This document shows, piece after piece, positions 50,542 to 64,000 of a stretch of DNA of 64,000 bases. The notes beneath the pieces were generated by a model. The model had not been told where the DNA came from and made no database searches. It saw nothing but the letters and a program-made list of their open reading frames with translations. The DNA lies in contig AP018280.1 of NCBI GenBank assembly GCA_004296455.1, forward strand, positions 5,270,001-5,334,000, given 5' to 3'. Origin of the DNA: Calothrix sp. NIES-4101. Lineage in GTDB: Bacteria > Cyanobacteriota > Cyanobacteriia > Cyanobacteriales > Nostocaceae. The position numbers were made by a program, and so were the translations under genes. Every line of letters starts with the position of its first letter. Within the stretch, counting starts at the first letter, position 1.

Positions 50542-51039
50542 ATGCTTGAGCTGATTCCCAAGTTAAACGACCACAACTTACCATATCCAGATACCATCCA
50601 TCCAATCGTGGTTCACTTTGTAATTGCGATGGTATTGTTTTCCTTTACCTGCGATGTTATTGGCTACTTTACCAAAAACGCGCGTTTATTTGAGGTAAGT
50701 TGGTGGAATATGTGTCTGGCGACAGTAGCGATTTTCGTCGCCATTATTTTTGGACAATTTGAAGCCGGATTAGCAAAACCCTATGATGTGGTGCAACCAA
50801 TATTGAGTATGCACACACTAATTGGTTGGTCTTTGTCAGGAGTGATTGCAGCGATTACAGCTTGGCGTTATGTAATTCGCTTAAAAACCCCAAATGATCT
50901 ACCGATTCCCTATCTTGGTTTAGGATTAGTGCTGGCTTGCTTAGTATTTTTGCAAGTTTATCTCGGTGACGAACTGGTTTGGGTATATGGCTTACATACA
51001 GTACCAGTAGTTGAAGCAGTCAAAGAAGGAGTACTGTAA
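50542..51039 (+). CDS. DUF2231 membrane protein, first of pair
   Basis: The 165-residue protein has four membrane helices and the DUF2231 start motif TIHPIVVHFVIAMVLF. Paired His residues (HP..VH) and MHTLIGW are conserved in this family and could bind heme or a metal, but this is not shown. AGGAG lies before the ATG. Its stop overlaps the next ATG (TAATG), and a paralogous gene follows, then coxB and coxA, so the pair is part of the oxidase operon. Confidence 0.9.
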   Translation: MLELIPKLNDHNLPYPDTIHPIVVHFVIAMVLFSFTCDVIGYFTKNARLFEVSWWNMCLATVAIFVAIIFGQFEAGLAKPYDVVQPILSMHTLIGWSLSGVIAAITAWRYVIRLKTPNDLPIPYLGLGLVLACLVFLQVYLGDELVWVYGLHTVPVVEAVKEGVL

Positions 51040-51644
51040 TGGAAACAGGATTAATTGAACAATTGCGATCGCAACTCGGTACAAACGGTCTTCCTTATGT
51101 TTTCCCAATTCATCCCAACTTAGTTCACCTAACACTGGGCTTATTCATCATTGGTATTACCTTTGATTTTGTTGGGGTACTTTTTCCGCTACAGCAACCC
51201 ATCTTCAAATTTTTAGCCCTTCCAGCAGCACGTTCCAACTTTTTTGATGTTGGTTGGTATAACATGCTGGGTTCTGCAATCATCACATTTTTCACTTTAG
51301 CTGCTGGTTTCTACGAAATGATGCTGGCAGAACCCTCAGTAGAAGTGAAAAGTGCCTGGGGATTAAAAGCAATGGAAACAATGCTCTGGCACGGAGTTGG
51401 CGGAGTTTTCTTACTGGCTATCATCGTCGGCATGACAGTTTGGCGAGGTTTACAGCGCTTTGTTTGGCGTAAAGAAGAAGACCGTCAAGTGCAGTGGACT
51501 TATTTAATAGCAGGTATGGCTGTCATGTTTCTGCTGTATGTACATGGTACCTTAGGCGCACAACTGGCAGCAGAATTTGGAGTCCACAACACAGCCGATT
51601 ATCTCCTCCGTGCAGGTGAAAATCCCAACGCATTTTTAAAGTAG
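51039..51644 (+). CDS. DUF2231 membrane protein, second of pair
   Basis: The 201-residue paralogue of the preceding gene has four helices and FPIHPNLVHLTLGLFIIGI near the N-terminus. Extra charged residues between helices three and four (RKEEDRQ) differ from the first copy. Later histidines (LWHGVGG, YVHGTLG) sit in helices. It is coupled to the first gene through TAATG. Known Anabaena cox3-type loci have similar small membrane genes before coxB, which supports a role in this oxidase. Confidence 0.9.
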   Translation: METGLIEQLRSQLGTNGLPYVFPIHPNLVHLTLGLFIIGITFDFVGVLFPLQQPIFKFLALPAARSNFFDVGWYNMLGSAIITFFTLAAGFYEMMLAEPSVEVKSAWGLKAMETMLWHGVGGVFLLAIIVGMTVWRGLQRFVWRKEEDRQVQWTYLIAGMAVMFLLYVHGTLGAQLAAEFGVHNTADYLLRAGENPNAFLK

Positions 51645-51702: not shown

Positions 51703-52632
51703 ATGATGATCCGAAACATTTTTGTACTCATCGTCAGTGCGATCGCGATAACTGCGGCAAGTCTTTGGTTGGGACAACAATCCTATTCTTGGTTCCCAGT
51801 TCAAGCCGCAGCCGAATCACGTCTAATTGATGACTTATTCAGTTTTCTAGTCGTTATCGCATCGTTTATTTTCCTGGGTGTGACAGCCACCCTACTGTAT
51901 TCAATTGCCTTTCACCGTGCAGCACCAAACGACACCAGCGATGGCCCCCCGATAGAAGGAAATATTGCTCTGGAAGTCGTTTGGACAGCAATACCCATTG
52001 TTCTAGTAATTTGGATTGCAACTTACAGTTACCAAGTCTATGAACAAATGGCAATTCGCGGGCCAATGGAAGTTATGCATTTGCATCTGCCTAAAGCAAT
52101 AGAATCAGCATATGCATTCCCTTGGGATAAAAAACCAGCTGTCGAACCAGAATCTGAAGCGATCGGCAACGGAACCATTAATGTTATTGCCAAACAATGG
52201 GCTTGGGAATTTCATTATCCTTACAAGAATGTCTCCAGTACTGAATTACATTTACCTGTAAATCAGCGAGTTCATCTAGCATTACAGTCGGAAGATGTTC
52301 TTCACGGCTTTTATGTACCTGCATTCCGAGTCAAACAAGATATCATTCCCAAACACACAATAGACTTTGAATTTACTCCGACTCGCGAAGGTACATACCG
52401 TTTGATGGACTCGCAATTTAGCGGTACATATTTCGCCGCCATGGAAGCCAATGTTGTCGTCGATTCATCAGCAGACTACGAACATTGGTTACAGGAAGCA
52501 GCAAATAAAAAACCAGCCCCAGCCAAAAATCAAGCTGCCCAAGAATACGCAGTCAACCAATCAAAACCCTTCCAAAACGGTTGGAAAACAGTAGTACCCG
52601 CAGCACCTCCCATAGTCAATTATTCAGGCTGA
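51703..52632 (+). CDS. coxB: Terminal oxidase subunit II lacking CuA ligands
   Basis: The 309-residue protein has two N-terminal membrane helices (about 5-25 and 43-68, with another near 92-110) and a cupredoxin domain (DVLHGFYVPAFRVKQDIIPK). The CuA site is lost: with the canonical spacing C-x-E-x-C-x3-H-x2-M the residues here are Asp236, Gln238, Ser240, Phe244 and Met247; only His201 and the Met remain. So cytochrome c is unlikely to be the donor. Quinol is probable, as in the ARTO/cox3 oxidases of cyanobacteria. The Pro/Ala/Lys-rich tail is unusual. coxA follows at 91 bp. Confidence 0.93.
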   Translation: MMIRNIFVLIVSAIAITAASLWLGQQSYSWFPVQAAAESRLIDDLFSFLVVIASFIFLGVTATLLYSIAFHRAAPNDTSDGPPIEGNIALEVVWTAIPIVLVIWIATYSYQVYEQMAIRGPMEVMHLHLPKAIESAYAFPWDKKPAVEPESEAIGNGTINVIAKQWAWEFHYPYKNVSSTELHLPVNQRVHLALQSEDVLHGFYVPAFRVKQDIIPKHTIDFEFTPTREGTYRLMDSQFSGTYFAAMEANVVVDSSADYEHWLQEAANKKPAPAKNQAAQEYAVNQSKPFQNGWKTVVPAAPPIVNYSG

Positions 52633-52722: not shown

Positions 52723-53058
52723 ATGACCAACACCAACGTTGAAAGAGTCTCCAGCGTTGTCTTAGAGAAACATCACCATCTACCCCCGACAACCTGGAAA
52801 ACTTACTTTAGCTTTAGTCACGACCACAAGGTAATTGGTATTCAATATCTTGTGACTTCATTCTTTTTCCTTCTAGTTGGCGGTATCTTCGCCATGATTA
52901 TGCGGGGTGAACTCCTGACCCCAGAAGCTGATTTAGTAGATAGAACCGTTTACAATGGCTTGTTCACCATGCATGGAACAGTCATGTTATTTGGTTGGAC
53001 ATTCCCTTCACTAGATGGTTATACAAGGGTCATATTTTGTGGTATCTTACCCTGTTAA
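52723..53058 (+). pseudogene. coxA: coxA (oxidase subunit I), N-terminal fragment interrupted by an element
   Basis: The first ~97 residues are a good subunit I start: YFSFSHDHKVIGIQYLVTSF in helix I and NGLFTMHGTVMLFGWTFPSL in helix II, where His84 is the low-spin heme ligand. After FPSL homology stops, and the frame runs 14 further codons into foreign DNA before TAA at 53056-53058. Full subunit I has about 550 residues. The remainder is not in the window and should lie beyond the right edge. The gene is either a reversible interruption, repaired by excision, or a dead gene. Confidence 0.93.
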
Positions 53059-53099
53059 GAATTCTAGGGGAATTATGAGGGTAGGGTATACAAGGGTCA
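53020..53099 (+). repeat. 13-bp direct repeat at the coxA break and in the recombinase start
   Basis: TATACAAGGGTCA occurs at 53020-53032, where coxA homology ends, and again at 53087-53099, in the first codons of the recombinase. Extending left gives 15 matches of 16. Both copies are in the same frame phase and read GYTRV in coxA and in the recombinase. It may include the crossover core or be a trace of a duplication. Confidence 0.6.
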
Positions 53100-54451
53100 G
53101 CAAATTTGAGCAAGAAGATGCACTGGTACAACAAACTGCAAGAATTGAAAAAGCAGGGTGTAGTTTGATTTTTAGCGATATCGAATCAGGTAGAAGCGAT
53201 CGCCGTAAAAATTTTAATAAGATGCTGGCAATGTGTCGAGAAGGTGACATTACAGAAGTAGTTATTACCAGGATTGATAGACTCGCTCGATCTGTAATGA
53301 CGATTGCGAAAACAGTATCTTTGTTGGAGAGTTTAAATATTAAACTTGTTATTTTGGATGCCCCAGTTGAAGACAGTTCTAGCCCGTTTGGCTGGTTTTC
53401 CCTTAATCAAATGGCAGGGTTAGCCGAGTTTGAATCCAGGTTGTTACAAAGTCGGGTTAATCATGGTTTGGCACATTTTCGCGATCAAAATAAAGCTTGT
53501 CAACCACCTTTTGGTTATGCGAAAGAAGACGGGAAATATATACCTGATACGTCTGTCCACGAAGGCAGTGGTAAAACCCATTGGTTGATCGCATCTGAAA
53601 TTATTGATTATTTTTTAATTCCAAAAGCATCATTAAGGAATACTATTCAATTCTTTATTGAAAAATACAATATTAAATTCTCCCCTCCAGGACTACGTGC
53701 ATGGTTGAGAAATCCTGTATTACAGGGTCATACTCGTTACAATGTTAAATTCAACCGGGTCAATCCTGACAAATGGGATATTAGAGAAAATACACATCAA
53801 CCTTTAATATCAAAAGAAGTTTATCAACAAATTGAAACTAGATTATCTGAGAATAGGCGGTTATGGGGACGCAATTTTGATGGAGCCACATCAAATACTG
53901 TCGGCTTACATTTGTTGTCAGGTCAACTTATTTGCGGTTGCTGTGGAAGTAAATGTTATGTTCATGACAAGAAAAAAGCAATGGGGGTAAGGTGCAAGAA
54001 ACGCAGAATATACGGTAACTCTGTGTGTACAAATAAAACAGCAGTACCTTTACTTAAAATAATTGATGCAGTTGATCAAGCGTTGTGTAAAAAGGCTTTT
54101 GAACTAAATAATTACGTTGTCACTAGTCAACCGGATAGAGAAGATACACCGGAAATTATTGAATTAAAATCACGACTTGACGTACTGCGATCGCTTCCCC
54201 AAGATTCGATCATTCTGGATGCTATTGAAAAAACAATACTCAAAATACAACAACTTCAACAGCAAAATACCCATGCTGCTAGTTTAGGTTTGCGGCTGCA
54301 AAAGGAACTTGTCAAGACCTTTGGGGACAGTGAATTTCTTCAAGTTGTCCCCGAAACAACCAAAAGAGAATTGTATAAGAAGTTTGTCAAGGAGGTGACT
54401 GTGTTAAATGGCGTGGTCGTCAATGTTTTGTTGGTCGATGTATTGCGGTAG
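53075..54451 (+). CDS. Large serine recombinase (XisF-like)
   Basis: The 458-residue enzyme has an N-terminal resolvase domain with nucleophile Ser9 in YTRVSKFEQ, catalytic arginines in SGRSDRR and ITRIDRLARSV, then a recombinase domain (QSRVNHGLAHFRDQ, PPFGYA). A zinc-ribbon follows (CGCCGSKC, later VRCKKRRIYGNSVC), and the C-terminus has a coiled coil. The ATG at 53075 with AGGGG 4 nt upstream is chosen; an upstream ATG at 53018 would start inside coxA. The type resembles XisF of the fdxN element, which excises DNA during heterocyst formation. Expected role: excise this element and rejoin coxA. Confidence 0.95.
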   Translation: MRVGYTRVSKFEQEDALVQQTARIEKAGCSLIFSDIESGRSDRRKNFNKMLAMCREGDITEVVITRIDRLARSVMTIAKTVSLLESLNIKLVILDAPVEDSSSPFGWFSLNQMAGLAEFESRLLQSRVNHGLAHFRDQNKACQPPFGYAKEDGKYIPDTSVHEGSGKTHWLIASEIIDYFLIPKASLRNTIQFFIEKYNIKFSPPGLRAWLRNPVLQGHTRYNVKFNRVNPDKWDIRENTHQPLISKEVYQQIETRLSENRRLWGRNFDGATSNTVGLHLLSGQLICGCCGSKCYVHDKKKAMGVRCKKRRIYGNSVCTNKTAVPLLKIIDAVDQALCKKAFELNNYVVTSQPDREDTPEIIELKSRLDVLRSLPQDSIILDAIEKTILKIQQLQQQNTHAASLGLRLQKELVKTFGDSEFLQVVPETTKRELYKKFVKEVTVLNGVVVNVLLVDVLR

Positions 54452-54610
54452 CAATTCGGGGTTAGCCATTATTGATTTTTTAGTCTCTATATCTACATTT
54501 AGTGGTTTTACATGCTGGAATAACAAAGCTAGTCTTAGTAAAGCTTCTGGTAATGTTTCGTTCTTTTTTGCAATGTATCGGGTAATATCAAGCTCTTTCA
54601 TCTGAGTCAT
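54404..54610 (-). CDS. Possible small protein at the 3' side of the recombinase
   Basis: The frame codes for 68 residues (ITRYIAKKNETLPEALLRLALLF and a polar tail) and overlaps the recombinase 3' end by 48 bp in antisense. Composition is protein-like, but no ribosome binding site is seen and no family is recognised. It could be the last gene of the leftward operon or a chance frame. Confidence 0.4.
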   Translation of the reverse strand: MTQMKELDITRYIAKKNETLPEALLRLALLFQHVKPLNVDIETKKSIMANPELLPQYIDQQNIDDHAI

Positions 54611-54658
54611 AGTGAAGCGTCATTTTAAGGTTAGACAAAATTTGAGTTATTTCTGTTA

Positions 54659-54700
54659 GTGCGATCGCATTCTGATTAATCAATCATGGCGCGATCGCAC
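54659..54700 (+). repeat. Inverted pair of HIP1-containing 10-mers
   Basis: GTGCGATCGC (54659-54668) and GCGATCGCAC (54691-54700) can pair over 10 bp with a 22-nt loop, between the rightward recombinase and the leftward small genes. Repeats of ATTAATCA surround it. It may act as a terminator, but the T run is only three bases. Any two HIP1 sites pair over 8 bp, so the excess is 2 bp. Confidence 0.4.
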
Positions 54701-54715
54701 TTTGATTAATCGTGA

Positions 54716-54928
54716 TTAATCAGGGATATGGAATAAATCAATCGCCCTATTTACGTGATTGATTTGTTCCGTGGGGATTTTTCCCTCTGCAATAAGTTGA
54801 CGGATTGCGTATATCTCACCCAATGTTGGGGCTGGGGATAATTCACCACGTTGTATCCGTTGCAGTAATTTGCTTTTGCAGAGGGGCATTAAATCAAATC
54901 TGCTGTTCTTTGGAGGGTAATAAGTCAT
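54716..54928 (-). CDS. Small hypothetical protein of the element's leftward operon
   Basis: The 70-residue soluble protein starts MTYYPPKNSRFDLMPLCKSK and ends in a helical part (LGEIYAIRQLIAEGKIPTEQ). The ATG at 54926-54928 overlaps the stop of the preceding gene as TAATG, and GGAGG lies 10 nt before it, so it is translated from the operon. An upstream start at 54967 is less likely. No family is recognised. Confidence 0.65.
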   Translation of the reverse strand: MTYYPPKNSRFDLMPLCKSKLLQRIQRGELSPAPTLGEIYAIRQLIAEGKIPTEQINHVNRAIDLFHIPD

Positions 54929-55095
54929 TAGTTTATAACCTCCCGCAGGTTTCTGTGCGGAACCCATTTACTCCAATCATGCCCTGCGACCTGACAGTCA
55001 CACCCAGCAACTTTCACCACCACTCCGACTTTGCCGTGGTATGAGAGCAAATTATCGTTAACCCTTACGTGATCGCCTATTTTGAATTCCTTCAT
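54928..55095 (-). CDS. Small KOW/SH3-like protein
   Basis: The 55-residue protein MKEFKIGDHVRVNDNLLSYH followed by GKVGVVVKV has the pattern of a small SH3/KOW barrel, often a nucleic-acid or protein binding fold. GGAAG lies just before the ATG at 55095. Stop and next start overlap (TAATG). It lies 56 bp after the primase-helicase gene in the same direction. Its role in the element is unknown. Confidence 0.65.
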   Translation of the reverse strand: MKEFKIGDHVRVNDNLLSYHGKVGVVVKVAGCDCQVAGHDWSKWVPHRNLREVIN

Positions 55096-55151
55096 CTTTC
55101 TTCCTTCTTTGACGTTTATTGATTCCCGGTTCGGGTGAACTGGGATGTGGT

Positions 55152-58100
55152 TTAAATGACTTGCAATTCCTGTGGTAAGTGGTGATGCGGCGTTTCTACA
55201 CCTTCCCATTGGATTTTTAACGTAGCAACGTTAACGCTTAGAACATTTCCAATGACTACGCTAGAAGGGAAATCTTTCAATCGCTCTGGTTTGATGCGAT
55301 CGCGATTCAAACTAACTCGTTGACCTTCTGTGAAGGCATCGATTGATAACGCTGGCTTTGAATTGCGGAAAATCTTCAAAAGTTGCCCAACCAAACGTTG
55401 ATCATCCTGATTCATCAAGTTTTTAATTTGATTTATTTGATCTTCAGGGAGTGGTTTGAGGATTACATCAATTTTTTCACCTTGATCAAATCGCGATAAC
55501 TTTTGATCAATTAATACTTGATTGATTTGTTGTGCGATCGCACTTAGGCTAGTTTTTTCAGTCTCACCCGCACCACTTTCAGGTTCACCCGCACCACTCC
55601 CGCACCACTCTTTTTTCTGGATGTCTTGTGTGGTAAGGGTTTCACAGCCACCCGCACCACACGCACCGTTTTCGGAGAACTTTATATATATTTCTTTTTG
55701 CGGGGGTAGTAATAAAGCGTTTTCTTCTGTTTTTGGTTTATTTTCTTCATTTTTTTCTTCCTTATATAAAGTGGTGCGGATGGTTCGGGTGGTGCGGGTA
55801 TCGGCTCCCTGTAAGGGTTCTAGATTTTCAAGTGGTGCGGGTAGTGGTGCGGGTGGTTCGAAAAGTGGTGCGGGTGTTGGTTCAAAATTCGGTTGAACGA
55901 CTTTGAGGTTGGATACAAAACCAATGCCCATTAGTACAGGAATACTCCTTTTTGCGATGGGATGATACTGTGTCGATTTTTTCGCTTTTGGGAATAGTTG
56001 ATGTATTCGCTCGATGACTTGATTAATCCCTTTGACGTTCTTATCGCTCGGTCGGACTTGATCAACCCATGTCCGCAGTTCTTTACCACTATCCGATCGC
56101 TCGATGGTTAGCGTGCCATTGTTGCAATACCAATCCTCTAGAAGGCTCCATAATTCCTTATTTGTCATAAACCCGTCTGGCACGTATCCAAGACCGATAT
56201 CCTCAATGAACTGGAATAAGTGGCTGTTTTGCTTCTGCACATCCTCTAAAGCTTCCTTAGTGCATGAAAAGTCAATCCCGTTCGCCATCAAGTCAACTAG
56301 TGAAGCTAATAGCTTATTGATAAAACTTGGCGCAACTTGATGAGTGATGAATACTGGATCGTAAGCAAATCGTGAATCTGCTTGCATTTCATCTGGATTT
56401 GATGGATCGGGGTTGTCCTTGAATGTTTTTGAAAACTTTAGGATTGCATATCTATCGGTGATAGCTTGCATCACACCCTTAACGATGGGAGTATCGTTTA
56501 GATTGAATAATTGAACAGCAACAGGATTGAATTCTTGATGGTCTTTACCTTTTTTCTCCGAGTGAAGTTTATTCCCTGTTATTGCCGACTTGAGCGATTG
56601 GATTTTGTCGAGTGCTGCTGTTTGGGGATTTTCACTCGCCCAATTAACTCTGGAAAATTGCAACGGTGCGACCGAGAATTTACGACCTTCATCGTATGAG
56701 GCGAAGTCCGCCAAACTTATGCTAGTTAAGCCCTCGTGTCCCAAGATGGTACTCACAACTTCTCTCAGGGTATCCTTACCATTGCTACCTTGCCCGCACA
56801 GTAAAAGGGCTTTTATCATCCGTCCCTTAAATTTGCGAACTGTTTGCAAGTCTAAGGAAGCTGCAATAGTTTTTAGAAAGATATCGCGCTGCGGCGCGTC
56901 CAAACAACCCAATAAGCGATCGCACTGTGTTGGGTCAGCGTCTGGGTCGTAGTTTACCAGTGGTTCGTAGATGTAAAAATGTTTGTCCGGGTCGTGAGTT
57001 TCAAAGGTGAATTTTGGCGTTGAACCTTCCCAGGATGTGGACAGAACACCGTTTTTGCAGTTTAGTCCACATGGGTTGACTTCATCAGGATCAATTAGTG
57101 TTTGCATCTGCACCCATTCCCACAATTCCCTAGCCTTTCTGGGATTAGCAAAAGGGTAATCTATCTCAATATCTCCATTGGGCAGTTCTTTTTGCCTTGC
57201 GTAAGTATTGCAGTATCTAGCTATCTTTCCTTTCTCTATAGCTTCCGGCTGTAATTTATAATGATTGGTCTCCCACTTATAAAGGATGCCGTTAACACTG
57301 ATGAATTGTCCTTTTGATTGATATAGTTCATGGAAAGCAATCTGCAAGAATGTTTCCCGTGGGTTGCCATCCTCTAGCCGTTGTTCTTTTTTGGCTTGTT
57401 TTTCTTGCTGGGTAAGGATTTTATGGGCGGCTAAGAACTCATCAAAAGTCATATCCGAGACATGTTCCCGCCAATTCTCATTGTTGACGCATAGATCATC
57501 AATCCCTTTTCCAAGTGCTGCATCCCATATTTTGACAATAGGAATACAGCCACGATTACGCAGTTGAGTGCCTAGCTTCACCAACTGCGATCGCACGTTC
57601 CAGTTGGTTTTCCAGTCGGCATCATAATAAATACTGAATTTTCTACCCGGCTTGATTAGTTTCTCTAATGTTGGGTAAAGTTTGGGTTCATTTTCTGCTT
57701 CATGCCATCTATTCACGCCAAACAAGATAAGTGCCGGAACACTTTCTGTCTCTAACTTTGCGCCTTTTTTACTGCCCTCTGTGATTCCAACTTCTACAGT
57801 ATGATCATCAACTATTCTTTGCCATTCTGCCTCACTCCGAACTGGTAGTATGGCGCAATCTTGCACCCCATTAGTTTGGGCGCTGGGAGTTAAATATTTT
57901 GAAGGTTTCTTACTAAGAACCTTTTTCTTATCCTTTTTGAATATCTTTTGATCGGCTTTGAATTGTCCAAAATTGGAAATGATCTTCCCTGCAAAATCAC
58001 TCTGAAAACATATCCATCCTGATAAATCAGTTACTTCGCATCCATTCTCATCAAAGAATTTTTGCTTACCCAGCAACTTTATTATCGAGCTAAAATCAGA

Positions 58101-58277
58101 CGTACTTTTTAAACACTTCCGCGCAATTTCCGGTGAAATTCCCGATTCTACAATCCACTCATCCCAATGTTTTTGGTCAATCCAGTCGGGACGCTTGAGG
58201 TTATCTACCAATCCATAGGGAGCATGATCGTCCCCGACGATTTGTAAAGGAGGATTCTGTGTAAATTCCGCAACCAT
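55152..58277 (-). CDS. DUF3854/P4-type primase-helicase
   Basis: The 1041-residue protein has an N-terminal DUF3854/TOPRIM-like primase part (VEVGITEGSKKGAKL near 165 and IYYDADWKTNW near 217), a D5-N-like region, then a superfamily-3 helicase core with Walker A LLLCGQGSNGKDT (about 490-502) and a downstream VNWASENPQ strand. A low-complexity Pro/Thr/Gly part (about 830-920) and a C-terminal small domain follow. Such proteins start replication of P4-like satellites and plasmids. AGGAGGTG lies 5 nt before the ATG at 58277, whose A overlaps the stop of the upstream gene (TGATG), so the two are coupled. Confidence 0.92.
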   Translation of the reverse strand: MVAEFTQNPPLQIVGDDHAPYGLVDNLKRPDWIDQKHWDEWIVESGISPEIARKCLKSTSDFSSIIKLLGKQKFFDENGCEVTDLSGWICFQSDFAGKIISNFGQFKADQKIFKKDKKKVLSKKPSKYLTPSAQTNGVQDCAILPVRSEAEWQRIVDDHTVEVGITEGSKKGAKLETESVPALILFGVNRWHEAENEPKLYPTLEKLIKPGRKFSIYYDADWKTNWNVRSQLVKLGTQLRNRGCIPIVKIWDAALGKGIDDLCVNNENWREHVSDMTFDEFLAAHKILTQQEKQAKKEQRLEDGNPRETFLQIAFHELYQSKGQFISVNGILYKWETNHYKLQPEAIEKGKIARYCNTYARQKELPNGDIEIDYPFANPRKARELWEWVQMQTLIDPDEVNPCGLNCKNGVLSTSWEGSTPKFTFETHDPDKHFYIYEPLVNYDPDADPTQCDRLLGCLDAPQRDIFLKTIAASLDLQTVRKFKGRMIKALLLCGQGSNGKDTLREVVSTILGHEGLTSISLADFASYDEGRKFSVAPLQFSRVNWASENPQTAALDKIQSLKSAITGNKLHSEKKGKDHQEFNPVAVQLFNLNDTPIVKGVMQAITDRYAILKFSKTFKDNPDPSNPDEMQADSRFAYDPVFITHQVAPSFINKLLASLVDLMANGIDFSCTKEALEDVQKQNSHLFQFIEDIGLGYVPDGFMTNKELWSLLEDWYCNNGTLTIERSDSGKELRTWVDQVRPSDKNVKGINQVIERIHQLFPKAKKSTQYHPIAKRSIPVLMGIGFVSNLKVVQPNFEPTPAPLFEPPAPLPAPLENLEPLQGADTRTTRTIRTTLYKEEKNEENKPKTEENALLLPPQKEIYIKFSENGACGAGGCETLTTQDIQKKEWCGSGAGEPESGAGETEKTSLSAIAQQINQVLIDQKLSRFDQGEKIDVILKPLPEDQINQIKNLMNQDDQRLVGQLLKIFRNSKPALSIDAFTEGQRVSLNRDRIKPERLKDFPSSVVIGNVLSVNVATLKIQWEGVETPHHHLPQELQVI

Positions 58278-58672
58278 CACCGCACCTCCTGAACGCCACC
58301 AGCAATCGAAACAAGAAACCAGACAAGCTCGCACTCATCACGATTCCATAATTGCTTGCGCTTCAAGTGCTTGGGAATCCTCACATTTATATACTCAGCG
58401 ATGCCTCGAACGATATGAGTCAGGACGTGCAGACCAATAGGGCATTTCTTCCCCCTCAAAAGGTACATCTTTTCCCCATCCAGCGAAAAAGCATCACCAA
58501 GAAAATTAGGGCTTTCTGATTCAATTACTTGGTATTTTGGGTAGAGGCAGCTATTGCAGCGAACTATTTTGGAATGCTCATGTATCCACATGGCTTGTGC
58601 TTCGTGCCAACTGCCGCAAATTGGGCAAGGGTCTTCCCCTCGGTTAGGGGAACGTGATACACTATTACTCAT
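58277..58672 (-). CDS. Zinc-ribbon protein coupled to the primase
   Basis: The 131-residue protein has CPICGSWH and CNSCLYP, four cysteines that should form a zinc ribbon like those in primases, followed by a mixed alpha/beta part (GLHVLTHIVRGIAEY). It ends at TGATG, overlapping the primase-helicase start. It probably supplies the DNA-binding zinc module missing from the large protein. This is inferred from gene order; the family is not recognised. Confidence 0.75.
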   Translation of the reverse strand: MSNSVSRSPNRGEDPCPICGSWHEAQAMWIHEHSKIVRCNSCLYPKYQVIESESPNFLGDAFSLDGEKMYLLRGKKCPIGLHVLTHIVRGIAEYINVRIPKHLKRKQLWNRDECELVWFLVSIAGGVQEVR

Positions 58673-58740
58673 ATATGAATACCTCCTAGGTATTTGTACT
58701 CAAAAGCATATTTACTCTTTAAAAACTGATGATTGATTTC

Positions 58741-58764
58741 CCCGCTTGCCGAGCGGGTATTTTT
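58741..58764 (+). terminator. Rho-independent terminator reading rightward, antisense to the operon
   Basis: CCCGCT and AGCGGG (58741-58746 and 58752-58757) form a 6-bp GC-rich stem with a 5-nt loop, followed by TATTTTT. The T run is only on the plus strand, while the neighbouring genes are on the minus strand. It could end a short antisense RNA opposite the leader of the zinc-ribbon gene. Confidence 0.5.
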
Positions 58765-58768
58765 ATGG

Positions 58769-58909
58769 CTATTTTTTGACATATTTATCCTTTACCGTTT
58801 TGAGGATTAGTTTTGAGATTGTCGTTTTTTGCAAATACGCTTGCAGCCGTAAATGCTCATAAAGTTCTTCCGGCAGCCGGAAGGAAGCTGTCGCCAATTC
58901 TTTTTTCAT
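58769..58909 (-). CDS. Ribbon-helix-helix protein, 46 residues
   Basis: The frame encodes MKKELATASFRLPEELYEHL and goes on with a second helix (TTISKLILKTVKDKY). The pattern of a short beta strand followed by two helices is that of Arc/CopG-type DNA-binding proteins. It is probably a copy-number or operon repressor of the element. It lies between two other minus-strand genes. The ribosome binding site is weak. Confidence 0.68.
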   Translation of the reverse strand: MKKELATASFRLPEELYEHLRLQAYLQKTTISKLILKTVKDKYVKK

Positions 58910-59036
58910 TTTTGGAAAATGGTAAATCTTGGAGTTATCGAAATTTTCGATAAGGTATATTCACGCTGCTTTTGCAGGTATTAAATATACAATTTTAATT
59001 TTTTGGATAACATTAAATACTAATCTACAGGTAAAA

Positions 59037-59079
59037 AGCGATCGCACCCTTGCCTTATCGTTGCTGTGGTGCGATCGCT
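59037..59079 (-). terminator. Terminator built from two inverted HIP1 copies
   Basis: AGCGATCGCACC (59037-59048) and GGTGCGATCGCT (59068-59079) form a perfect 12-bp stem with a 19-nt loop. Read on the minus strand it directly follows the stop of the gene at 59081 and is followed by a TTTTTA run, the form of a Rho-independent terminator. Confidence 0.75.
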
Positions 59080-59080
59080 G

Positions 59081-59260
59081 TTAGCCTTTGTTGTCTTGAT
59101 TTTTTGCCCATTCCAGCAGCAAGGCTCTCACCAGATGAGATATTGCTATATTCTGTTCTATCGCTAATCTCTTAATGTGTTCCTTCTCTTGTTCCAAGAG
59201 AAAAGCCCTTATTTCTGTTGCGTTTTTTTGGCGGGCGGTAACTTGGGGTAACTGTGCCAT
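59081..59260 (-). CDS. Ribbon-helix-helix-like small protein
   Basis: The 59-residue protein MAQLPQVTARQKNATEIRAF continues with EKEHIKRLAIEQNIAISHLVRALL, a two-helix pattern typical of CopG-like DNA-binding proteins. I use the ATG at 59260; a GTG at 59320 would add 20 residues that do not look like the fold. A strong terminator follows. It is the second of three similar small regulators on this strand. Confidence 0.62.
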   Translation of the reverse strand: MAQLPQVTARQKNATEIRAFLLEQEKEHIKRLAIEQNIAISHLVRALLLEWAKNQDNKG

Positions 59261-59340
59261 GTCTTTTGGTAATGTGTTTAACACATTTAAGGTAGCACAG
59301 TTTTCCTCGATGTCTAACACATGGTCAGAAATATTTTTGA

Positions 59341-59538
59341 CTAAGTTTTGCGATCGCTCGTAATTTTCTGCTTTCCCAGTAGTCCCTCTTCGTTTGCTAA
59401 GTCTCTCACCAGTTTATTAAATATTGATGCCGCAAAGGTAGCGGTGGGTAAAGAATGCTTTTGTGCCAACTGTTTCACCAGTTCGGCTACATCTTCCTCT
59501 ATCACCAGTGTTATCCTTGGTCGTGCATACTTTGGCAT
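59341..59538 (-). CDS. Ribbon-helix-helix-like small protein, operon-proximal
   Basis: The 65-residue protein MPKYARPRITLVIEEDVAEL continues with a helix and SLPTATFAASIFNKLVRDL. The beta strand RITLVIEE followed by two helices fits a CopG/Arc-type repressor. GAGG lies about 10 nt before the ATG. It faces the divergent ParM gene across a 395-bp repeat-rich region and so may bind operators there. Confidence 0.7.
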   Translation of the reverse strand: MPKYARPRITLVIEEDVAELVKQLAQKHSLPTATFAASIFNKLVRDLANEEGLLGKQKITSDRKT

Positions 59539-59933
59539 ATTTTTTTTAACCTCTAAAACCCTTATGATAGCTGGTTTTGCCCGTTATTACCAGTAATATT
59601 CTCTGAGAAAAGCATGTAATTAATGGTATTACCTGTTGACAGTGCCATTAGTTACCAGTTATATTCATTGTGTAAGCAGACAGCAAACAAACTGAATGCA
59701 GACAGCTTACACAATGCAGACATTAATTTAATCTCACCCAGCGAGTGAGAGACATATCAACCCAATCCGTGAGAACCAATCCGAGGGCACGTTTGACGGG
59801 AGTTCGTGAAAGTCGAACAAAGCATTTTCTAGCCAATTGCGGCTAACTACAGTTATGCAAACTGAATGCAAATTGTATTCAATCTGTAAACAAGTTGTAT
59901 AACTGCACTAGCTAAAATTATTTAGGTTGCGAA
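59539..59933 (+). promoter_or_regulatory. Divergent region with repeats, candidate parC/origin
   Basis: The region between the regulators and ParM contains a perfect 12-bp inverted repeat (59666-59677 with 59705-59716), a direct repeat GCAGACAGC at 59676-59684 and 59698-59706 with a third partial copy at 59716-59722, and a 13-bp direct repeat CAAACTGAATGCA at 59688-59700 and 59858-59870. Iteron-like repeats just upstream of an actin-type segregation gene are the layout of parC centromeres or of replication origins. The assignment is inference. Confidence 0.5.
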
Positions 59934-60887
59934 ATGCTTCAAACACTTACAAATCAATGCGTCCGTCCAATTGTGGCGTGTGACGCTGGAAATAGATATA
60001 TCAAATGGGTCAATCCTGCAAAGCAAGTAAAATCAATACTTTCATGTGTTGCGGAGTTAGATAAGTATGACTCTTACGACATGAATGCAAATTGCCCGCA
60101 CACTGTCTACATCGAAACCGATAACGGAAAACGCTATCTAATCGGTAAGGATGCCAGTCAATTTGGTGGTCAGATGGTCTTTGATGGGGATAAGTGCGAA
60201 CTAGCTGAAATCCTTGTCCTAGCTGCATTACAGCCGTTACAAGGGGAAACAAACTTAGTCGTTAATGATTTACGTTTATGTCTGCCTGATAGCCGTATTG
60301 ATGCATCCAGGGAAGCTTTACAGCGACTCACCGGACAACGGGTTTTTACACGAAACAATCTACTGATTCATGTAGACGTTAAAAGTGTTCGAGCCATTGA
60401 CGAAACCATTGGGTCTTTCCGTAGAGCAAAAACAGAGGGACTATTCAGTTATCCCGATGTACTGAATGGCATTATCTCACTTGGCGGCAAAGATGGAATC
60501 GCCCGTCTTTATACGGGCGATGGGCAAATTAATCGCAGTGCTGATGTGAAGATATCAGGTACTTTAGCACTGACAAACCTTGTAAATAAAGCCCTTGCGG
60601 TCGAACTGGGACGAACCATAAAGCCTCATATCATCATGAATGCGATTGAATCCGGCAATTACACTATCGCAGACTTTAACTTTTCAAAGATATTCTTTGA
60701 TTGCCGTGAAAAATGGTGGTCTGAAATCCGTTCCGCAGTCGGCAAGCAATGGCAACCTTTTGCAGATGAAATTGGTGAAGTTTTAGTTGTTGGTGGGTCT
60801 GCCAATATAGTGCGATCGCACTTACCCAATGACCGTTATAAGGTTCCATCTGAACCACAATTTTTTGATTTACTCGGATTAATTTAG
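59934..60887 (+). CDS. ParM/StbA-like actin-family plasmid segregation protein
   Basis: The 317-residue protein shows actin-fold signs: phosphate-1 motif VACDAGNRYIKW, a second Gly-rich strand GIISLGGKDG and the adenosine motif VLVVGGSANIV near the C-terminus. ParM-type ATPases polymerise into filaments that push plasmid copies apart. A small candidate ParR follows at 12 bp, and repeats lie upstream, giving a parC-parM-parR order. Sequence identity to known ParM is probably low, so the class is uncertain. Confidence 0.85.
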   Translation: MLQTLTNQCVRPIVACDAGNRYIKWVNPAKQVKSILSCVAELDKYDSYDMNANCPHTVYIETDNGKRYLIGKDASQFGGQMVFDGDKCELAEILVLAALQPLQGETNLVVNDLRLCLPDSRIDASREALQRLTGQRVFTRNNLLIHVDVKSVRAIDETIGSFRRAKTEGLFSYPDVLNGIISLGGKDGIARLYTGDGQINRSADVKISGTLALTNLVNKALAVELGRTIKPHIIMNAIESGNYTIADFNFSKIFFDCREKWWSEIRSAVGKQWQPFADEIGEVLVVGGSANIVRSHLPNDRYKVPSEPQFFDLLGLI

Positions 60888-60899
60888 GGGAACAAACGA

Positions 60900-61169
60900 A
60901 TGACTAAAAAGATAGAACGCTTATCAGTAATGATTCCTAGAGATTGTAAATCGGATATTGACTACATCATGTCGGCAACGGGCATCAAATCAAATGGTGA
61001 ACTATTTAAATTGATGCTGGCAAGATATCGTGAAGATTTTATCCTTGCCTACAATCAATTTTTCACCCCCGCAACGACGCTGGAACAAACAGTAGAGGTT
61101 ATTCCAACAGCTAACCAAACTAAGTCTACCTCTGCACCAAAACCATTAACTAGCGCAATGGATTTTTGA
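60900..61169 (+). CDS. Candidate ParR-like adaptor
   Basis: The 89-residue protein has a ribbon-helix-helix-like start (IERLSVMIPRDCKSDIDYIM, then ATGIKSNGELFKLMLARY) and a polar, probably disordered tail ending TSAMDF. DNA-binding RHH fold followed by a flexible C-terminal tail is the known ParR layout, in which the tail binds ParM. The gene follows ParM by 12 bp. The assignment is by fold and position. Confidence 0.65.
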   Translation: MTKKIERLSVMIPRDCKSDIDYIMSATGIKSNGELFKLMLARYREDFILAYNQFFTPATTLEQTVEVIPTANQTKSTSAPKPLTSAMDF

Positions 61170-61171
61170 AA

Positions 61172-61417
61172 ATGAGCAACAACCAACCGAACCCAACCCA
61201 GCCCTACCGCTACAGCGATCGCATGAAAGAACTTATTGGGCAAGCCTGCGATGCCTTGTACGAGGCACGACGCAGTAACCCAAAAGAATGGGAGCTTTTG
61301 CAAAAGCAATCTTTATTGTGGTGCGAAGATGGTGGGATTTTCGATGCAATCAGCATAGTTCGCGAGTGCTGCGACATTGTGAACACAGATAATTTAATGG
61401 ATGACAACGATGATTAA
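61172..61417 (+). CDS. Small hypothetical protein, first of an overlapping array
   Basis: The 81-residue acidic, helical protein contains QACDALYEARRSNPKEWELL and GGIFDAISIVRECC. It begins 2 nt after the candidate parR stop. The next protein shares a similar plan (a -L-.E... block, then DAI-I), suggesting old duplication. Function is unknown. Confidence 0.6.
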   Translation: MSNNQPNPTQPYRYSDRMKELIGQACDALYEARRSNPKEWELLQKQSLLWCEDGGIFDAISIVRECCDIVNTDNLMDDNDD

Positions 61418-61604
61418 ATTTAGCCCGTATAACAATCTCAAACAATGCGATCGCCTTCTATTTGAGATTTACTTGCATGATGAGGAAGCATGGCATATGT
61501 ACAACGAACACCTACAAAACCATTGCGATCACGGCACTCTAGCCGATGCGATCGCGATTTTGCAAACATTAATCAATGCAATTGACGAGGATACTAATGA
61601 CTGA
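61410..61604 (+). CDS. Small hypothetical protein of the array
   Basis: The 64-residue protein (MIKFSPYNNLKQCDRLLFEI, then GTLADAIAILQTLINAID) starts at an ATG overlapping the previous gene by 8 nt; an ATG at 61401 would add three residues. The ADAIAILQ segment aligns with FDAISIVR of the previous gene. There is no membrane segment or known domain. Confidence 0.55.
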   Translation: MIKFSPYNNLKQCDRLLFEIYLHDEEAWHMYNEHLQNHCDHGTLADAIAILQTLINAIDEDTND

Positions 61605-61872
61605 TCACGAAATGATTGATTTACTTTTCAAATACGTTCTAGTTTGTGCTGAAAAAGAAAATATCGACCCCGATTTAGCTGAAAGATTATTAGCGGGGAC
61701 AATTAACGCCGACATAGAGGAATGGACGGAAGTGCAATCCTGCAACTGGATTGAGGAAACACAAAAACTATTCCCGCAATATCAAATCTTTGAGATATTG
61801 CGATCGCACTCTAGAATTATCTGCTTTTTCAATAATTTCCTGCGAATTTCTGAATCTTGGGAGAGAAATTAA
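61597..61872 (+). CDS. Small hypothetical protein of the array
   Basis: The 91-residue protein MTDHEMIDLLFKYVLVCAEK is helical and acidic. Its ATG overlaps the previous frame by 8 nt, and its stop overlaps the next ATG (TAATG). No family is recognised. Confidence 0.55.
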   Translation: MTDHEMIDLLFKYVLVCAEKENIDPDLAERLLAGTINADIEEWTEVQSCNWIEETQKLFPQYQIFEILRSHSRIICFFNNFLRISESWERN

Positions 61873-62030
61873 TGATGCATCAAGATGATTTGATTCAATT
61901 GATGAATGATTATTTACACCCTTGCGGGTTAGGCGTGATTGATTTTGATTCATTGCAAGATGCTGCACGATTCATCAATCAAAATATTCCTTGGGCGCAA
62001 ATGATTGATATTGATGGGGAGTTTGATTAA
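61872..62030 (+). CDS. 52-residue hypothetical protein of the array
   Basis: The frame encodes MMHQDDLIQLMNDYLHPCGL and ends GEFD. It starts at TAATG, overlapping the preceding stop by one base, and ends 2 nt before the next ATG. The tight packing supports translation by coupling. Acidic and soluble; function unknown. Confidence 0.5.
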   Translation: MMHQDDLIQLMNDYLHPCGLGVIDFDSLQDAARFINQNIPWAQMIDIDGEFD

Positions 62031-62032
62031 TC

Positions 62033-62245
62033 ATGCAAAATCAACAAATCAATCAAAAATCAATCAAAGCCGCACGAATTGTCTCAAAGATGATTGATTT
62101 ATTTATTCAATTGCGGGCTGAATATCCTGATACATATCAGCAAATAAATCAATCAATGCAGATGATGGGTCAAAAGGATTTGACGCATTGCTGGAACTTA
62201 CTACTGCTGGCTTTTACGTTGATCGAGGGAGGAAAAAGAGAATGA
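62033..62245 (+). CDS. Small hypothetical protein of the array
   Basis: The 70-residue protein has a Gln/Asn-rich start and a helical body (AARIVSKMIDLFIQLRAEYP, later CWNLLLLAFTLIE) similar in plan to the first two array proteins. It is linked to the next gene by an ATGA overlap at 62242-62245. Confidence 0.55.
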   Translation: MQNQQINQKSIKAARIVSKMIDLFIQLRAEYPDTYQQINQSMQMMGQKDLTHCWNLLLLAFTLIEGGKRE

Positions 62246-62403
62246 GTGATTTTGATTTAATCCAGCATCTAATGAGTATAAATACTCACTTGCAGATATT
62301 ACAATCAGCCAGACCAAGCGATCGCATATTATTTGAGATTAGTCAACAAGTGCGATCGCGGCTACAGGAACTATTAAATGTGGGGGAAGTATGCCGGAAA
62401 TAG
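62242..62403 (+). CDS. 53-residue hypothetical protein of the array
   Basis: MSDFDLIQHLMSINTHLQIL begins at an ATGA overlap with the previous stop. The protein is all-helical in appearance and contains two HIP1-encoded RSR/SDR spots. Function is unknown. Confidence 0.5.
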   Translation: MSDFDLIQHLMSINTHLQILQSARPSDRILFEISQQVRSRLQELLNVGEVCRK

Positions 62404-62666
62404 CCAGAATTTACCAACCCGACCAACTTTCAAAGCATCGAATTTACGATTATCGAGGCACAAAATACAGGTTTATCTGTAAATGTCCTTATGCCCAACT
62501 AAATCATCCTCAATGGAATTTTGACCCATTACCGGGACAAAGAAGTAAGAAAAGTTTGAGGCTTAACCTCAACAAAATTCGATCTGGATGCTTAGTTGAG
62601 TTACCCGACGTTATTACCAAGCCTCAATCACAGGTTCCCGAAGCAGTACAACAAAGTTTATTTTAA
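62391..62666 (+). CDS. Small basic hypothetical protein
   Basis: The 91-residue protein (YRGTKYRFICKCPYAQLNHP, then SKKSLRLNLNKI) is basic with two close cysteines (CKC) and may bind nucleic acid. It overlaps the previous gene by 13 nt and closes the array; a HIP1 inverted pair (62667-62676 and 62697-62706) starts right after its stop, without a T run. Confidence 0.6.
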   Translation: MPEIARIYQPDQLSKHRIYDYRGTKYRFICKCPYAQLNHPQWNFDPLPGQRSKKSLRLNLNKIRSGCLVELPDVITKPQSQVPEAVQQSLF

Positions 62667-62757
62667 GTGCGATCGCATAACCGATCAAAGCTAAACGCGA
62701 TCGCACTGGGTGCAATCTACCACAAGTAAAAAATACACACCATACAAGGATTTTACC

Positions 62758-63276
62758 ATGAGTAAGCCAATAGGATTTTGGGGAGTTAATTACAGCCTCG
62801 AATTAATCAAAGATATAGCTGAGTGCTGGGGCGATCACTTGCAATTACTCTCAGATTCGGATAGGTTCTGGCTTTTAGGACAAATAGCAGATGTAATTTG
62901 GCTAGAAAATGCCCCGGACAGTATGGAAACTTCCCCAGAATCAGAAGAATTAAAAATGAGATTACCAGAATTAGGGAAAGCTGGCATTGGATCATTTATC
63001 CAAGCTTTAGTGAATAAGAGCTACTGCCAGCCCCTAGAATACTGGGGTATGCCACACAATTGCTTGCTAACGGATGATATCCGCGAAAGTTGGGGCGATG
63101 ATTTAAGCGGATTATCGGAGCTAGAAAGCTACTACTTGTTAGGTCGATGCGGTTTGCACATGTGGTTGAGGTACTGCGATTCTGCACCTAGCAATGAAGC
63201 TCAGGAAGTTTTTGACCGATTGGATGAGCTACCAACAAATCAGTGGATAGCGCTATGCCAAGCATTGGGGAATTAA
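62758..63276 (+). CDS. Hypothetical protein with an internal duplication
   Basis: The 172-residue protein contains two related units: LIKDIAECWGDHLQLLSDSD with FWLLGQIADVIWL, and LTDDIRESWGDDLSGLSELE with YYLLGRCGLHMWL. Each combines an acidic WGD segment and a hydrophobic helix. AAGGA precedes the ATG at 62758. The fold is unknown; a repeated WGD-L-L-S-E/D-x-(F/Y) motif defines it. It is soluble. Confidence 0.65.
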   Translation: MSKPIGFWGVNYSLELIKDIAECWGDHLQLLSDSDRFWLLGQIADVIWLENAPDSMETSPESEELKMRLPELGKAGIGSFIQALVNKSYCQPLEYWGMPHNCLLTDDIRESWGDDLSGLSELESYYLLGRCGLHMWLRYCDSAPSNEAQEVFDRLDELPTNQWIALCQALGN

Positions 63277-63278
63277 TT

Positions 63279-63395
63279 GTGAAAGTATTAATCACAGCAA
63301 TCCTCATACTGTTAGCGACAGCAGAACCAGCGATAGCACAAAATCAATCATCAAATGACCCACCTCCACAACGTGGAGTAGGACGCAGGGAGTAA
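63279..63395 (+). CDS. 38-residue putative secreted peptide
   Basis: A GTG-started frame gives MKVLITAILILLATAEPAIA followed by QNQSSNDPPPQRGVGRRE. This is a typical signal peptide with an AIA-Q cleavage site and an 18-residue Pro/Arg-rich mature end. It lies 2 nt after the preceding stop and is followed by a strong terminator. Confidence 0.5.
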   Translation: MKVLITAILILLATAEPAIAQNQSSNDPPPQRGVGRRE

Positions 63396-63406
63396 TTAGT
63401 TAAGTA

Positions 63407-63433
63407 AATGCCTAGAGGAATCTAGGCATTTTT
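63407..63433 (+). terminator. Rho-independent terminator
   Basis: ATGCCTAGA (63408-63416) and TCTAGGCAT (63421-63429) form a perfect 9-bp stem with a GGAA loop, followed by a run of five T. It closes the rightward small-gene operon. Confidence 0.85.
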
Positions 63434-63444
63434 GTTCAACAAAA

Positions 63445-63666
63445 ATGAAAAAAATAATTACCAGACAATACTCAGAAATCCGCCCAGACGGCACACATAT
63501 CACAAAGAACGAAACTATCGAAGAAGAGTACAACAACGGATTAGCCGATATAGCGATCGCGTTTATTGTCTTCTTTGGTTTATTCCTTGGTAGTTGTTAT
63601 TTCTTCAAATTGATATTTGTCCCATCGCCACAAAACCCCAATACATATATAGGAGAGAGAATATGA
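63445..63666 (+). CDS. Small single-helix membrane protein
   Basis: The 73-residue protein has a charged N-terminal half (ITRQYSEIRPDGTHITKNET) and one membrane helix (IAIAFIVFFGLFLGSCYFF). It is coupled to the next membrane protein gene by an ATGA overlap at 63663-63666. No family is recognised. The pair may act together in the cell envelope. Confidence 0.6.
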   Translation: MKKIITRQYSEIRPDGTHITKNETIEEEYNNGLADIAIAFIVFFGLFLGSCYFFKLIFVPSPQNPNTYIGERI

Positions 63667-64000
63667 TTTTTGGCAGAACTTCCGAAGTAGACAAAACTTT
63701 TGCACAAGTAGCCAAGTTACTGGCTTATGGAATGATTGCAAGTAATTGCTTCTTCACATTTGGATATCTACAAAGTAGGTTGGGAATTGGGAATAACGAT
63801 TTACGATTCATTGCCAGTATTACCGTATCTGTACTAGTTTCAATCGTCGAGGCTGCGACCTTTAGCGCTATCTTCAATCCTGAATTACTACCAAAATTAC
63901 TTGGACGTAGCGCCGAGACGATGAGACATCCAGATAAAGATGTCGTGGGAATCAGTCGATTAGCTCAGAATGCAGCCCTAGTAATGCTTTGCGCCATCAG
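63663..64000 (+). CDS. Membrane protein, 5' part (continues past window)
   Basis: The frame is open for 112 codons to the window edge. Two hydrophobic helices (KLLAYGMIASNCFFTFGYL and FIASITVSVLVSIVEAATF) are followed by a polar stretch (LGRSAETMRHPDKDVVG) and the start of another helix. The upstream stop overlaps its ATG. The family cannot be named from the part seen. Confidence 0.65.
   Translation, partial: MIFGRTSEVDKTFAQVAKLLAYGMIASNCFFTFGYLQSRLGIGNNDLRFIASITVSVLVSIVEAATFSAIFNPELLPKLLGRSAETMRHPDKDVVGISRLAQNAALVMLCAI

Follow-up and report, generated by a model that had tools for sequence, protein, structure and literature searches.

Host genes split by DNA that carries its own recombinase have been described in several systems. 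The closest to the case reported here are the coxA2 and coxA3 elements published by Hilton et al. in 2016 (PMC4874684). We analysed a window of 64,000 nucleotides from Calothrix sp. NIES-4101 (G000:C1:5270001-5334000; genome of 7.59 Mb in 6 contigs), in which an element, E1, interrupts coxA3. The published elements resemble it in the affected gene, the border recombinase, the short repeats and the use of serine recombinases. G000 differs from the cases described in that survey by having both genes split, coxA3 even twice. The nifD (XisA) and hupL (XisC) elements named in the survey are alike in that a host gene with a heterocyst role is split by a recombinase-bearing element. In other hosts, the developmental excision of an integrated element restores a gene in the case of the sigK skin element and of SP-beta in spsM (PMC5025042, PMC4191935), although these are phage-derived and belong to the sporulation mother cell. 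We consider it likely that E1 is a heterocyst-type interruption element which is excised by its own large serine recombinase, so that coxA3 is restored, and that E1, like the element E3 in coxA2, is triggered from the cox promoter.

A reading of the window made from its letters alone, here called the original prediction, had expected that the gene might already be listed, and the survey does include a coxA3 element (PMC4874684). The coxA elements are already known; what is new is the evidence on their ends, mobility and trigger. The survey marks elements by exact repeats and sees the connection among elements within a site as evolution inside a lineage or inside genomes. Its main text is without the words horizontal, palindrom and plasmid, points which are raised here, and it leaves the origin of such elements open, a question on which our comparison bears. 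We searched the literature for coxA elements and for signs of a plasmid origin or of horizontal transfer, with subscription journals mostly outside the range; beyond the survey, no listed paper was recognised as one on coxA elements.

The homology to coxA3 stops at the core TCACT, in codons 96-97 of 556, where the original prediction had seen a break after about 97 residues. The window ends inside E1, and coordinates above 64,000 are window-equivalent.

52723..53012, plus strand: coxA3 piece 1, codons 1-97, by COX1 homology
53008..64000, no strand: portion of E1 within the window; E1 reaches window-equivalent 70,320
53008..53012, plus strand: left core of E1, TCACT, crossover probably CT at 53011-53012; the right core is at window-equivalent 70,321
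53022..53029, plus strand: TACAAGGG, left arm of the palindromic attP-like site of E1
53075..54451, plus strand: large serine recombinase of E1 (Pfam), 458 amino acids, the gene directly after truncated coxA3
window-equivalent about 70,321-70,801 and 78,849-79,773, plus strand: coxA3 pieces 2 and 3, by COX1 search

A COX1 search of the whole G000 genome gave six matches, namely an intact coxA1, three pieces of coxA3 and two of coxA2. The three coxA3 pieces lie in order and on the same strand of one 7.2-Mb contig, and joining their flanks in silico yields an open CoxA3 of 556 amino acids without stops, with coxC3 as the next gene. The rest of coxA, for which the original prediction had proposed a search beyond position 64,000 with a dead gene as the alternative, is found there in frame. 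Two elements interrupt the gene, E1 with 17,313 bp and E2 with 8,067 bp. E2 has a 20-bp border repeat (TGGAGGAAAyCyTGTTTTAT, two mismatches) around codons 249-255 and its recombinase at the far end, on the opposite strand. The second heterocyst-type gene, coxA2, is split by E3 (33,453 bp), whose crossover, TT, falls within the Phe codon of IMIFLW; its joined flanks encode a CoxA2 of 557 amino acids, again without stops. In this nitrogen-fixing strain, mobile DNA thus interrupts a gene of each of the two oxidases that would be expected to shield nitrogenase against oxygen. The original prediction had missed both E2 and the split coxA2.

The ends of the elements match. The direct border repeats are very short: TCACT for E1, where the pair in G001 is mismatched at one of the five bases, and only TT for E3. 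We rejected TGGAT as the core of E3 because Thr would then replace a conserved Leu; a comparison of eight genomes and the centre of symmetry also place the crossover at TT. Close relatives have empty sites. Calothrix sp. FI2-JRJ7 has an uninterrupted coxA3 (93% identical), the congener G001 lacks an insertion at the E2 site, and the congener G002 has an uninterrupted coxA2.

Each of the three elements has an intact open reading frame for a site-specific recombinase at a border, and all three are of the serine type. The recombinase of E1 (Resolvase 103.6 bits, Recombinase 40.1, zinc ribbon 31.3) starts 64 bp beyond the crossover, so the large serine recombinase that had been predicted close behind the break is there. 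XisA and XisC are tyrosine recombinases, in which they differ from E1-E3. Large serine integrases, which act on attP and attB, have the Resolvase, Recombinase and zinc ribbon domains, a dyad attP-like site beside the gene and a short crossover in common with E1-type elements. In contrast to these, the targets of E1-E3 are located within conserved coding sequence, in genes specific to one cell type, and no directionality factor was identified for the three elements.

Our sample from the family comprises 145 genomes. In 130 of them the best coxA3 match has E = 0, and the other 15 were inspected piece by piece. The counts of split genomes are minima, based on that best coxA3 match in the 130 genomes and, for coxA2, on the matches listed. 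At the E1 codon coxA3 is split in at least 7 of the 145 genomes (G000, G001, G002, G057, G107, G114 and G121) and at the E3 codon coxA2 is split in at least 8 (G000, G001, G014, G033, G050, G076, G083 and G096), so that the same codons are hit in other genera as well. Splits at the E2 site were seen in no genomes other than G000 and G002. The 15 junctions at the E1 and E3 sites, from 13 genomes, all join in frame to the same conserved peptides, FTMHGTVMLF[G/L]WTFPSLVGFANYLVP for the E1 site and NHGTIMIF[L/M]WIVPSAIGGFGNYLV for the E3 site. In some draft genomes the pieces are on separate contigs (G001, G057 and G121 for coxA3, G001 and G014 for coxA2). An assembly artefact might be suspected for G050, where the coxA2 pieces are 985 kb apart, which is odd on its own. 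G050 is Calothrix PCC 6303 (100% plasmid match), however, and the gap agrees with the nearly 1-Mb coxA element published for that strain (PMC4874684), whose coxA is split at the E3 codon. Given also the ordered coxA3 pieces on one contig of G000 and the same codons split, with related recombinases, in six (coxA3) and seven (coxA2) other genomes, an artefact is hardly conceivable.

Some candidates were not scored as split coxA3. G142 was rejected because its irregularity is a masked, frame-shifted stretch and its E1 site is whole; G009 and G111 have only full-length copies of 70-72% identity, G082 has a degraded N-terminus and G025, G044 and G108 have no close coxA3. Other split positions were seen as well: coxA2 is split near residue 188 in G114 and, with pieces at contig ends and hence uncertain, in G009. 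In G034 (L135) the break in coxA3 is close to residue 314, with ∼2.2 kb separating the pieces, and the single open reading frame of 474 amino acids found there fits no Pfam family. The coxA2 element of G083 (L151) measures only 1.9 kb and is a minimal element, its recombinase being the sole open reading frame of at least 80 amino acids.

When the inner ends of an element are joined, a palindrome centred on the crossover appears, which is attP-like. For E1 it has the form CCCTTGTA...CT...TACAAGGG and is clearest in the relatives; for E3 it is CCACGGTA-N~15-TT-N~15-TACCGTGG. The symmetry in the 15 junction cases ranges from 14 to 20 of 26 pairs. In 7,500 shuffles the mean was 10.6 (standard deviation 1.5, maximum 19), with 3.4% of them at 14 or above, and 112 mismatched pairs of E1 and E3 arms gave a mean of 10.0 and a maximum of 14. 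Low single scores are not decisive, but the whole set is. A 13-bp string, TATACAAGGGTCA, contains the E1 att arm at 53020-53032 and is repeated 67 bp on at 53087-53099, where the second copy falls inside the opening codons of the recombinase gene (Y-T-R-V).

The genes upstream of the break are those that had been predicted, a coxB without CuA site and two DUF2231 genes.

50542..51039, plus strand: DUF2231 membrane protein, gene 1 of the cox3/qox operon (145.7 bits)
51039..51644, plus strand: DUF2231 membrane protein, gene 2 of the cox3/qox operon (132.5 bits)
51703..52632, plus strand: coxB3, frame open, COX2 domains, zero cysteines (Pfam and sequence)

As CoxB3 has no cysteine, it lacks a CuA site, unlike coxB2 and coxB1 of G000, which retain the C-A-E-L-C motif. 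The order of the genes is that of the operon alr2729-alr2730-coxB3-coxA3-coxC3 (PMC6616624). Homology, operon order and CuA status together support the assignment of coxA3 to a heterocyst-type Qox/Cox3 oxidase. This operon order and the open joined frame also favour the plan which the original prediction had proposed, namely a heterocyst-type gene split by an element with its recombinase at the border.

The position of the recombinase suggests a simple and testable trigger. In E1 and E3 it directly follows the truncated cox gene, at a distance of 56-64 bp from the break, and activation of the operon should therefore produce its own repair enzyme. The same arrangement is found in 14 of the 15 cases; the recombinase starts 49-64 bp beyond the crossover in 13 of the 14 co-oriented ones and 186 bp beyond it in G002. 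In the survey 23 recombinases are co-oriented and 70 opposite (PMC4874684), so the coxA sites run contrary to that trend, although the 15 cases are not independent. In G114 (L128 / L192) a related recombinase is located at the opposite end of the coxA3 element, reversed and 64 bp from the crossover, and from this the near-palindromic E1 site may have been used in both orientations.

We infer that excision takes place in heterocysts, with the cox promoter as the trigger for E1 and E3. Transcription of the broken cox operon would produce the recombinase, which would repair the operon. In the case of E1 the recombinase would cut out the element, and the flanks would rejoin at a crossover of 2 bp (CT, codon 97) to give a coxA3 that can be read across the junction. 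For a complete coxA3 the excision of E2 would also be needed, and for coxA2 that of E3. In Anabaena, Cox2 and Qox are restricted to heterocysts (PMC6616624, PMC11500504), and in a coxA3 insertion mutant the heterocyst-specific 5' cox3 mRNA signal persists (PMC11500504), which makes read-through into the recombinases of E1 and E3 plausible. Between positions 52600 and 53300 we found no terminator-like site, where 0.5 would be expected. The same stretch has two promoter-like sites against an expectation of 1.6, and both belong to the opposite strand. If excision works in this way, Qox would depend on two DNA excisions and Cox2 on one, and the strain would be well suited to testing whether DNA rearrangement can gate the protection from oxygen.

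With coxA1 intact and no excision observed, it might be argued that coxA3 and coxA2 are dead genes, permanently disabled, and that respiration proceeds via coxA1. We think this improbable. The joined frames are open in all of the 15 E1 and E3 cases, and coxA3 and coxA2 of the congeners have ratios of nonsynonymous to synonymous divergence (dN/dS) of 0.025-0.060, like intact copies (0.074 in an intact pair). The recombinases are intact, too, with dN/dS of 0.09-0.16 where synonymous sites are unsaturated, and Anabaena is described as unable to grow diazotrophically without Cox2 and Qox (PMC6616624).

Several observations weigh against the proposed excision and its trigger. No excised junction or circle was seen, and the terminator and promoter scan covers E1 only. 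No exact NtcA box (GTAN8TAC) is present near the operon, while the window has 14 matches with 9.25 expected. Read-through cannot drive E2, as its recombinase faces the other way, and the same applies to the G114 element. The right arm of the E1 palindrome is imperfect in G000 itself, and 4 of the 15 palindrome scores equal 14, a value that 3.4% of the shuffles match or exceed and that the best mismatched pair also attains. Finally, the constraint on coxA may partly predate the insertions, because several pairs suggest elements more recent than the divergence of their hosts; as a proof of function while split it is weakened.

The age of the elements was judged from the recombinases, which cluster by target site but do not track the hosts. 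Support for the coxA3-site group is 100/100 against the nearest nifD recombinases of the genome in a small tree and 92/78 in a large tree; for the coxA2-site group it is 100/100 and 90/97, respectively. Among G057, G107 and G121 the synonymous divergence (dS) of the recombinases is 0.09-0.19, compared to 0.56-0.77 for coxA3 and 0.63-0.97 for coxA2. It is 0.51 between G001 and G050 (coxA2 1.59, coxA3 1.88) and 0.60 between G033 and G096 (host cox genes 1.23 and 1.55), where values above about 1 are rough and the yardstick of one to three host genes is thin throughout. The E2 recombinases of G000 and G002 show 0.43, compared to 0.82 for coxA3 and 1.05 for coxA2. In several pairs the shared elements thus look younger than the host split, and a synonymous divergence below that of the host genes indicates transfer between species. 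The congeners G000, G001 and G002 show the opposite pattern: with a coxA3 dS of 0.43-0.82, their E1 recombinases are only 59-71% identical and saturated at synonymous sites (proportion of synonymous differences, pS, 0.77-0.80, versus 0.32-0.50 for coxA3). These values would suit separate origins of E1 in the three genomes, but the approximately unbiased (AU) test does not reject a single recombinase clade (p 0.127). At the E3 site a clade of the two congeners' coxA2 recombinases is rejected (p 2.2e-7).

Palindromic ends, target-specific recombinases, low synonymous divergence and plasmid-type genes point to integrative elements that move horizontally. Tentatively, and at somewhat less than even chances, we propose that the coxA excision elements are horizontally spreading, site-specific integrative elements, some of them derived from plasmids, in which every lineage of recombinases serves a single codon of a heterocyst oxidase gene and, by insertion as the next gene of the host operon, has its expression tied to that operon, rather than old vertical relics. 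If this is true, the vegetative line would keep the element while transcription of the broken operon in the proheterocyst makes the repair enzyme, and the parasite would cost its host almost nothing. Attachment-like palindromes beside an integrase-type gene, signs of transfer between species and plasmid-type replication genes in E1 and E3 would also be expected of ordinary integrative elements that excise randomly or under stress in any cell, without developmental timing. Such elements would be lost at random, which would strip them from the vegetative line. Their targets here are the two heterocyst oxidase genes and not coxA1, in a genome with split nif and hup genes, and the recombinase is so regularly the next gene of the cox operon that we give this explanation a low probability as well.

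For the cargo, 11 complete elements were searched with the proteins of E1 and E3, and Pfam was applied to chosen open reading frames.

55152..58334, minus strand: plasmid-type primase-helicase in E1 (DUF3854, DUF5906; P4-type primase C-terminal domain below cut-off)
59934..60887, plus strand: actin-like (ParM-like) protein in E1 (ALP_N 27.5 bits, cut-off 26.3)
60900..61169, plus strand: small protein just 3' of the actin-like gene, no NCBIfam match

From its position, the small protein may be the partner in a partition pair. E1 also encodes an NTPase-like protein (weak Pfam match) with a relative in the coxA2 element of G076. E3 encodes the plasmid replication protein CyRepA1 (295 bits, cut-off 200) and an actin-like protein, and the G076 element a D5-type and an actin-like protein. 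E1 and E3 have replication and partition-type genes as expected of an integrative plasmid. Altogether, replication genes were found in at least 3 of the 11 complete elements (E1, E3 and the G076 coxA2 element). The middle half of the E1 primase-helicase resembles Nostocales plasmid proteins in 57 records, all below 60% identity; the best 14 of these are on plasmids of 16-64 kb and show 47-58% identity over about half of the query. At 60% identity or above, nothing matched the E1 recombinase in the 5000 best plasmid records, nor the first 98 amino acids of the E3 recombinase in 237 records, and a megablast of window positions 53008-64000 gave no match. Within these searches no free plasmid or viral form of the elements was found. 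The coxA3 element of G107 (L189:4945-16611, L190:2171-3622) encodes Cas1 and a Cas3-like helicase, with neighbours resembling a CRISPR-Cas operon, and also a nitrogenase-component-1 type gene.

The cargo of E2 is of another kind (IS66 transposase, manganese catalase and pirin), and neither replication nor partition genes were among the open reading frames scanned. Its recombinase groups with the nifK, fdxN and one further recombinase of G000, which relates it to the fdxN element with XisF named in the survey (PMC4874684). It differs from that element in its cargo, and the three XisH-family matches in G000 are all outside E1, E2 and E3.

Outside the window, at about 4.13-4.50 Mb of C1, nifH, nifD, nifK and hupL of G000 are likewise in pieces. 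Serine recombinases adjoin the nif pieces. The nifH pieces are ordered 3-1-2 on one strand, and part of nifB is on the strand opposite to the nifB end and fdxN (named by eye), so that simple excision alone may not restore these genes.

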